DNA of 64,000 nt, taken from Phycisphaerales bacterium. Lineage in GTDB: Bacteria; Planctomycetota; Phycisphaerae; Phycisphaerales; UBA5793. A program made the position numbers and the translations under genes. Below the pieces are notes generated by a model. The model made no database searches. It had not been told where the DNA came from and saw nothing but the letters and a program-made list of their open reading frames with translations. The stretch lies in the NCBI GenBank assembly GCA_020852515.1, contig JADZAS010000030.1, forward strand, positions 62,001 through 126,000, written 5' to 3'. Positions 2,512 to 3,361 of the stretch are shown piece after piece; position 1 is the stretch's first letter, and each line of letters starts with the position of its first letter.

Positions 2512-2618
2512 GAGTGCAACGGCTTTTGGGGCGGCAGTCTAGCCGCCTCCACCGCCCGAGCCACCGCGGCGGCCGGCATTGCCCAGGCACGATGGAAACC
2601 GCCCAACGCCGGTTTCGA

Positions 2619-2714
2619 ATAAAAAACGCGTAGCCAAACAGAGCCGGCTACGCGCGGAGGGGAGAAAGATCGAGTTGAGGAATACCGTCCCGCCGAGGGG
2701 CGGGCCTGAATTCG
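2619..2714 (-). ncRNA. candidate small RNA (or leader attenuator)
   Basis: The 469-base gap between two divergent genes holds a complete minus-strand transcription unit with no convincing ORF. A strong promoter is followed about 95 nt later by a perfect hairpin and six T. The predicted RNA begins near GGGACGAAUUC and forms a CCCGCC/GGCGGG hairpin. It then has a single-stranded pyrimidine stretch, CUUUCUCCCCUCC, complementary to Shine-Dalgarno sequences, before the terminator stem. This fits a trans-acting sRNA. It could instead be a 5' leader with an attenuator for the TIM-barrel gene, whose start lies about 107 bases beyond the T-tract. I recognise no known RNA family. The rest of the gap (2748-2980) shows nothing clear beyond the gcvH ribosome binding site. 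Confidence 0.5.
2621..2654 (-). terminator. intrinsic terminator of the candidate small RNA
   Basis: The arms CGCGTAGCC (2627-2635) and GGCTACGCG (2646-2654) form a perfect 9-bp stem with a 10-nt loop. On the minus strand they are followed by six T (2626-2621). The T-tract is on the minus side only, so it ends minus-strand transcription. Confidence 0.75.
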
Positions 2715-2719
2715 TCCCT

Positions 2720-2747
2720 AGTATACGGCAACCAAACGGATTGACAA
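2720..2747 (-). promoter_or_regulatory. sigma70-type promoter of the candidate small RNA
   Basis: On the minus strand TTGTCA (2747-2742) and TATACT (2725-2720) are separated by 16 bases. Each hexamer differs from consensus at one position. Transcription would start near 2714. This is one of the best consensus promoters in the window and it points at the ORF-free stretch. Confidence 0.6.
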
Positions 2748-2980: not shown

Positions 2981-3361
2981 ATGCCCAGCCCCGCCGACCG
3001 CCGGTACAGCGAATCGCACGAGTGGCACAAACTCGAAGGCGACATCGTCACCCTCGGTATTTCGAAGTTCGCGGTCGATGAACTCACCGACGTCACCTAC
3101 GTCGAGGTCAAGCCCGTGGGCACGACCCTCAAGGCCGGCGACACGATCGGCGAGGTCGAATCCGTCAAAGCCACCAGCGAAATCTACTCCGCAGTCGGCG
3201 GCGAAATCGTTGACGTCAACGCGAACCTCGCCGACGATCCGGCGATTCTCAATCGCGACCCGTACGAAGCCGGCTGGCTCTGCCGCATCAAGGTCAGCGA
3301 CGCAGCGCCGCTCGAATCGCTCATGCAGCAGACTGAGTACGACAAGAAGAACCCCTCGTGA
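2981..3361 (+). CDS. gcvH: glycine cleavage system H protein
   Basis: The 126-residue lipoyl carrier shuttles the aminomethyl group between the P, T and L proteins of glycine cleavage. The lipoylation site is Lys63 in EVESVKATSEIYSAV. The N-terminal YSESHEWHKLEGD segment and the GWLCRIKV end segment are typical, and the length is normal. A GAGGAG lies 11 bases before the ATG. The other gcv genes are absent. Instead the stop overlaps the GTG of an ABC ATPase by four bases, an unusual partner. The H protein could also act in lipoate relay. Confidence 0.95.
   Translation: MPSPADRRYSESHEWHKLEGDIVTLGISKFAVDELTDVTYVEVKPVGTTLKAGDTIGEVESVKATSEIYSAVGGEIVDVNANLADDPAILNRDPYEAGWLCRIKVSDAAPLESLMQQTEYDKKNPS

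Follow-up and report, generated by a model that had tools for sequence, protein, structure and literature searches.

A conserved RNA family of the Phycisphaerae with a putative anti-Shine-Dalgarno box

Among the small RNAs (sRNAs) of Alphaproteobacteria, alpha-r14 (NfeR1, SmelA075) and cuckoo/CcsR carry an ultraconserved, unpaired anti-Shine-Dalgarno (anti-SD) motif and are predicted to target broadly (PMC10746234, PMC3927594, PMC10253847). In Firmicutes, RsaE/RoxS and RNAIII bind G-rich Shine-Dalgarno (SD) sequences with UCCC or UCCCC seeds (PMC9217828). A survey from 2022 counts few annotated sRNA families in the whole PVC group, 8 distinct ones in total (PMC9029176). Here we analyze a minus-strand locus in a 64,000-nucleotide stretch of DNA from a Phycisphaerales bacterium (hereafter, the window) and its relatives throughout the class Phycisphaerae. 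Like alpha-r14, cuckoo and CcsR, the Phycisphaerae RNA keeps its anti-SD motif unpaired, is free in the sequence of its stems and occurs in several copies. However, whereas alpha-r14 RNAs present the motif CCUCCUCCC repeatedly, in several of their hairpin loops, the Phycisphaerae RNA has one CUUUCUCCCCUCC box in an unpaired linker before the terminator, and its hairpin loops do not carry CCUCCUCCC. Likewise, CcsR is cotranscribed with a DUF1127 gene, but no DUF1127 neighbor was found here: the locus adjoins genes for GcvH, a LolD-type ABC ATPase, a TIM-barrel-like protein, Cmk and an acyltransferase instead. The likeness to CcsR-type RNAs drawn in the original prediction may thus hold for function, and does not hold for structure. 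With RsaE/RoxS and RNAIII the RNA shares a C-rich stretch suited to SD binding, but it belongs to another phylum, its box is longer and single, and its anatomy is different.

As the original prediction had also reported, no known family matches: in Rfam 15, neither the window nor the distant homologues gave a family above the gathering threshold, and relaxed thresholds gave nothing credible. The best sub-threshold match, Esr41 (RF02676), likewise consists of two hairpins of which the second is the terminator, and its 13.1 bits (E=3.9; gathering score 102) are what chance would give. No planctomycete sRNA of such kind was found in the open literature searched. Because it lacks the alpha-r14/CcsR features tested, has no Rfam match and has no counterpart in that literature, we file the Phycisphaerae RNA as a new, apparently undescribed family, which on our best reading would work like alpha-r14/cuckoo/CcsR and RsaE without being a member of either group.

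The gene in the window

The unit runs from promoter to terminator at 2747-2620 on the minus strand (Table 1), and its anatomy bears out the original prediction closely. The near-consensus promoter is a TTGTCA-16-TATACT site with 10/12 consensus matches that is kept across the genus; an 8-kb scan holds 2 promoter-like sites this good against 0.5 expected from shuffles. The hairpin followed by six T is a predicted terminator whose homologous stem covaries, and the proposed non-coding transcript of about 95 nt stands as a prediction of about 90 nt (GAAUUCAGGCCCGCCCCUCGGCGGGACGGUAUUCCUCAACUCGAUCUUUCUCCCCUCCGCGCGUAGCCGGCUCUGUUUGGCUACGCGUUUUUU). Inspection of the sequence found no ATG/AUG in the transcript, and a 40-aa ORF overlapping the gene starts at 2770, upstream of the -35 element. 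The anti-SD stretch proposed to lie exposed between two hairpins has a mean unpaired probability of 0.94 across its 13-nt core in folding predictions, and it is mostly unpaired in the predicted RNAs of the homologues too. The gene does lie between divergent genes, the TIM-barrel-like gene and gcvH. Since the single-sequence folding energy of the window RNA is not unusual (z -0.81), the case is carried by conservation and covariation.

Table 1. Positions of the sRNA gene, its parts and its neighbors in the window
Feature	Positions	Strand	Basis or remark
-35 element TTGTCA	2742..2747	minus	sRNA promoter; sequence scan and conservation
-10 element TATACT	2720..2725	minus	sRNA promoter; sequence scan and conservation
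Predicted sRNA, ~93 nt	2621..2713	minus	start inferred 7 nt past the -10 element; end is the U-run
5' hairpin CCCGCC-CCUC-GGCGGG	2689..2704	minus	folding; structure recurs in homologues, sequence does not
Anti-SD box GAUCUUUCUCCCCUCC (GATCTTTCTCCCCTCC at 2671-2656)	2656..2671	minus	folding and conservation
Intrinsic terminator, 12-pair stem (2655-2626) and U6	2621..2655	minus	covariation at 11/11 modelled pairs of the homologous stem
Candidate operator or second promoter AAGATGGGAAAA	2762..2773	minus	12-bp element, conserved, ~55 bp before the predicted start
TAGACT, candidate -10 element by which the TIM-barrel-like gene would have its own promoter	2536..2541	minus	inferred; conserved in three genus genomes
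TIM-barrel-like gene	2511-1573	minus	name from the original prediction; no Pfam match
gcvH	2981-3361	plus	Pfam GCV_H, E=3e-41

Two further elements lie upstream. The AAGATGGGAAAA element recurs as AAGATRGGNAAR, with 0-1 mismatch, at all six locus-A copies (the window's locus; see below) of the family f1 and at four of the family f3; it does so too in 4/7 copies of f11, which belongs to another order, there near the predicted start site. A DnaA-box-like TTTTCCACA stands at 2819-2827 on the minus strand, about 150 bp upstream of the box, in 5/5 genus genomes, and the sister genus has a TTATCCACA-type match on the opposite strand.

Conservation, covariation and distribution

When 61 relatives were searched at the DNA level, each of the four remaining genus genomes proved to hold an orthologue, as did one sister genus. 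In the synteny alignment of these five genus genomes and the sister genus, the -35 and -10 elements, the box and the terminator are kept, while the 5' part of the transcript and the flanks diverge, with indels. The -35 element is TTGTCA in four genus genomes, TTGCCA in one and TTGCCG in the sister genus; the -10 element is TATACT in all five and TATGAT in the sister genus. Among 53 aligned members, 98.3% of the cells in the terminator stem are paired and double changes occur in 11/11 pairs. There are 106 double-change cells; shuffles give 24 and slid controls no more than 19. Wider sets behave similarly. These alignments were fitted to the model's own structure, but the slid and shuffled controls, together with compensations visible by eye, argue that the fitting is not the cause of the covariation. 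Covariance searches of relatives' genomes, as had been proposed with the original prediction, and the synteny within the genus show that this is a real RNA family.

In the 15 copies with a legible -10 element, the RNAs measure 82-94 nt and the box begins at nucleotide 38-47, its core having a mean unpaired probability of 0.43-1.00 (>0.7 in 12/15). The 5' segments vary in sequence and fold better than their dinucleotide shuffles (z<0) in 15/15 copies, with a mean z of -1.35, five of these copies coming from one genus and so not being independent. The consensus is a single-stranded (A/G)UCUUUCUCCCCUCCG box between a 5' hairpin of free sequence and the terminator. CTTTCTCCCCTCC is exact in 63/73 matches; the remaining variants, C/T exchanges or small indels, preserve CUCC or CCUCC (CCUCU in three of them) within a pyrimidine tract. 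Using the box in the search itself accounts for part of this invariance, and the synteny alignment is the less biased evidence. Nearly all core changes swap one pyrimidine for another, the pattern that purine-tract partners would predict.

Every genome of the genus has two copies, at loci A and B. The second copy in the window's genome (G000:C30:47340-47395) lies 17 kb away, outside the window; throughout the genus the second copy has an identical box (ATCTTTCTCCCCTCC), and its terminator stem differs by compensated changes. In the window's genome an RNase P RNA (RF00010; L009 2681-3043, on G000:C30) lies some 1.1 kb downstream of this second copy. Locus A sits between divergent ftsX/lolD/gcvH and TIM-barrel/cmk/plsC genes in the families f1, f2 and f3, and its cassette is inverted, toward gcvH, in two genomes of one genus (L252 and L258). 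The gene before locus B is glycosyltransferase-like in f1 and parts of f2, f3 and f4. In f5 and f6 locus B comes after gatCA, a ROK-type kinase gene usually intervening in f6; it often stands opposite a convergent gene. A and B are anciently duplicated loci that share one box and probably differ in promoter.

Beyond the genus, the pattern ATCTTTCTCCCCTCCG-N14..44-TTTT occurs in 90/301 Phycisphaerales genomes, with 0 matches in a backward-read control, and a first covariance model (R1, eight rows) found the RNA in 45/61 relatives. Among the complete genomes with a copy is that of Planctomycetales bacterium ZRK34 (CP050848.1), at G025:C1:2878369-2878424. The models R2 and R3 were refined on copies already found; at E<=1e-5, R3 reaches 113/298 genomes of the class, other orders included, some of the weakest of these 113 matches being due to chance. 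In those other orders R2 and R3 find the forms TTTTCTCCCCTCCGGAAAACATCG...CGATGTTTTC or ATTTTCTCCCCTCCGGAAGACACCG...CGGTGTCTTC, and most R2 matches from other planctomycete classes are weak or cover the stem only (e.g., L353, L354). In unrelated phyla the pattern was matched under about a dozen titles, including Clostridiaceae, Thermococcus and Pseudomonas, roughly the number that we estimate for chance in 257 Gb. A related box or hairpin also occurs in the window's genome at G000:C6, C7 and C17, where the copies resemble parts of a repeated element, and at G001:C49; all four were excluded from R2 and R3, and G001:C49 is among the R1 rows. Variants of the box or hairpin that have a GCGCACTGCCGGCCCAATCGCCGGCGGTGCGTTTT-type hairpin occur at L055 3278, L056 4019, L246 and L012 1505, in the window's genome within an apparent repeated element, and some f5 genomes (e.g., G013, G021; L346, L347, L211) hold further relatives with altered boxes.

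Pairing, targets and alternative readings

The window's genome has the usual 16S rRNA tail, GGATCACCTCCTTTCT, and can therefore use SD pairing. The box pairs more strongly at start regions than at internal ones, a difference that 4/100 shuffled boxes equal, and at start regions it exceeds the control by only a small margin. GGAGG precedes 4/62 start codons in the sampled DNA, which implies few strong anti-SD targets there. Complements of 12 nt before ATG are mostly the antisense strand of the sRNA genes themselves, and the rest are near chance level as roughly estimated from uniform composition; 9-nt complements in the genus form no ortholog set beyond the closest genome pair. Against the 16S rRNA loci and RNase P RNA, the box makes no run >10 even counting G-U pairs, which we take as chance. 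A missing excess of long targets is not unusual for sRNAs with 7-9 nt seeds. A model search for Hfq (PF17209) that detects the protein in five controls, E. coli and B. subtilis among them, found it in 0/61 Phycisphaerales genomes, from which we infer that the sRNA is Hfq-independent.

We consider it likely that the locus is a stand-alone gene for an Hfq-independent, trans-acting anti-SD sRNA. Judging by the conserved promoter and terminator, RNA polymerase would start at about 2713 on the minus strand and stop at about 2621, releasing an RNA of about 90 nt that, according to folding and covariation, consists of a free-sequence 5' hairpin, an open CUUUCUCCCCUCC box and a terminator hairpin. The box would pair with the purine-rich SD regions (GGAG, GGAGG, GGGGAG, AGAAAG) of a set of mRNAs and so block ribosome binding, presumably without Hfq. 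If loci A and B are under different promoters, one target set could answer two signals.

The box might instead be a site for a pyrimidine-specific RNA-binding protein, the RNA serving as a sponge or carrier of that protein rather than as an antisense regulator. The near-invariance of 13 nt across the class exceeds what short seed pairing needs, and full-length target enrichment is absent, but the box changes, insertions and shortened forms (CTTTCTCCTCCG or TCTCTCTCCTCC) retain SD complementarity rather than one fixed word and no candidate protein was identified, so we judge this reading unlikely.

Position suggests two further readings, both very improbable. The RNA is co-directional with the TIM-barrel-like gene, whose start lies about 110 nt past the terminator, and with gene order kept in f1, f2 and f3 it could be a terminated leader (attenuator) of the TIM-barrel/cmk/plsC genes. 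Yet locus A, kept in three families, is inverted in two genomes, and the same-box paralogues lie elsewhere, after gatCA or a glycosyltransferase-like gene and often opposite a convergent gene, which contradicts the simple TIM-barrel leader that the original prediction had named as its own refutation; moreover, no antiterminator fold is seen and a separate TAGACT site follows the sRNA terminator. The least probable reading is that the RNA is merely a conserved transcription terminator at the 3' end of longer transcripts. Between gatA or a glycosyltransferase-like gene and the locus B copy downstream there are 100-280 nt, and hence some copies may be 3' UTR-derived, but a terminator needs no invariant 13-nt unpaired box, the window copy is preceded by a conserved promoter of its own and by no co-directional gene, and many f6 copies have TTGATT-17-TAAAA-type promoters close upstream.

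A bolder and unlikely extension of the anti-SD sRNA reading makes the RNA a global Hfq-free tuner of SD-led translation, a core regulator of the whole class with two copies in several families. If it were so, masking the few SD sites, or purine tracts that pair with the 16S tail, could shift ribosomes to SD-less mRNAs under stress, in a class where SD use is sparse. More generally, an sRNA that is deeply conserved, shows an explicit seed and occurs where no Hfq is recognizable offers an entry to antisense regulation in planctomycetes, and its class-wide box predicts both the mutation to make and the pairing to test.
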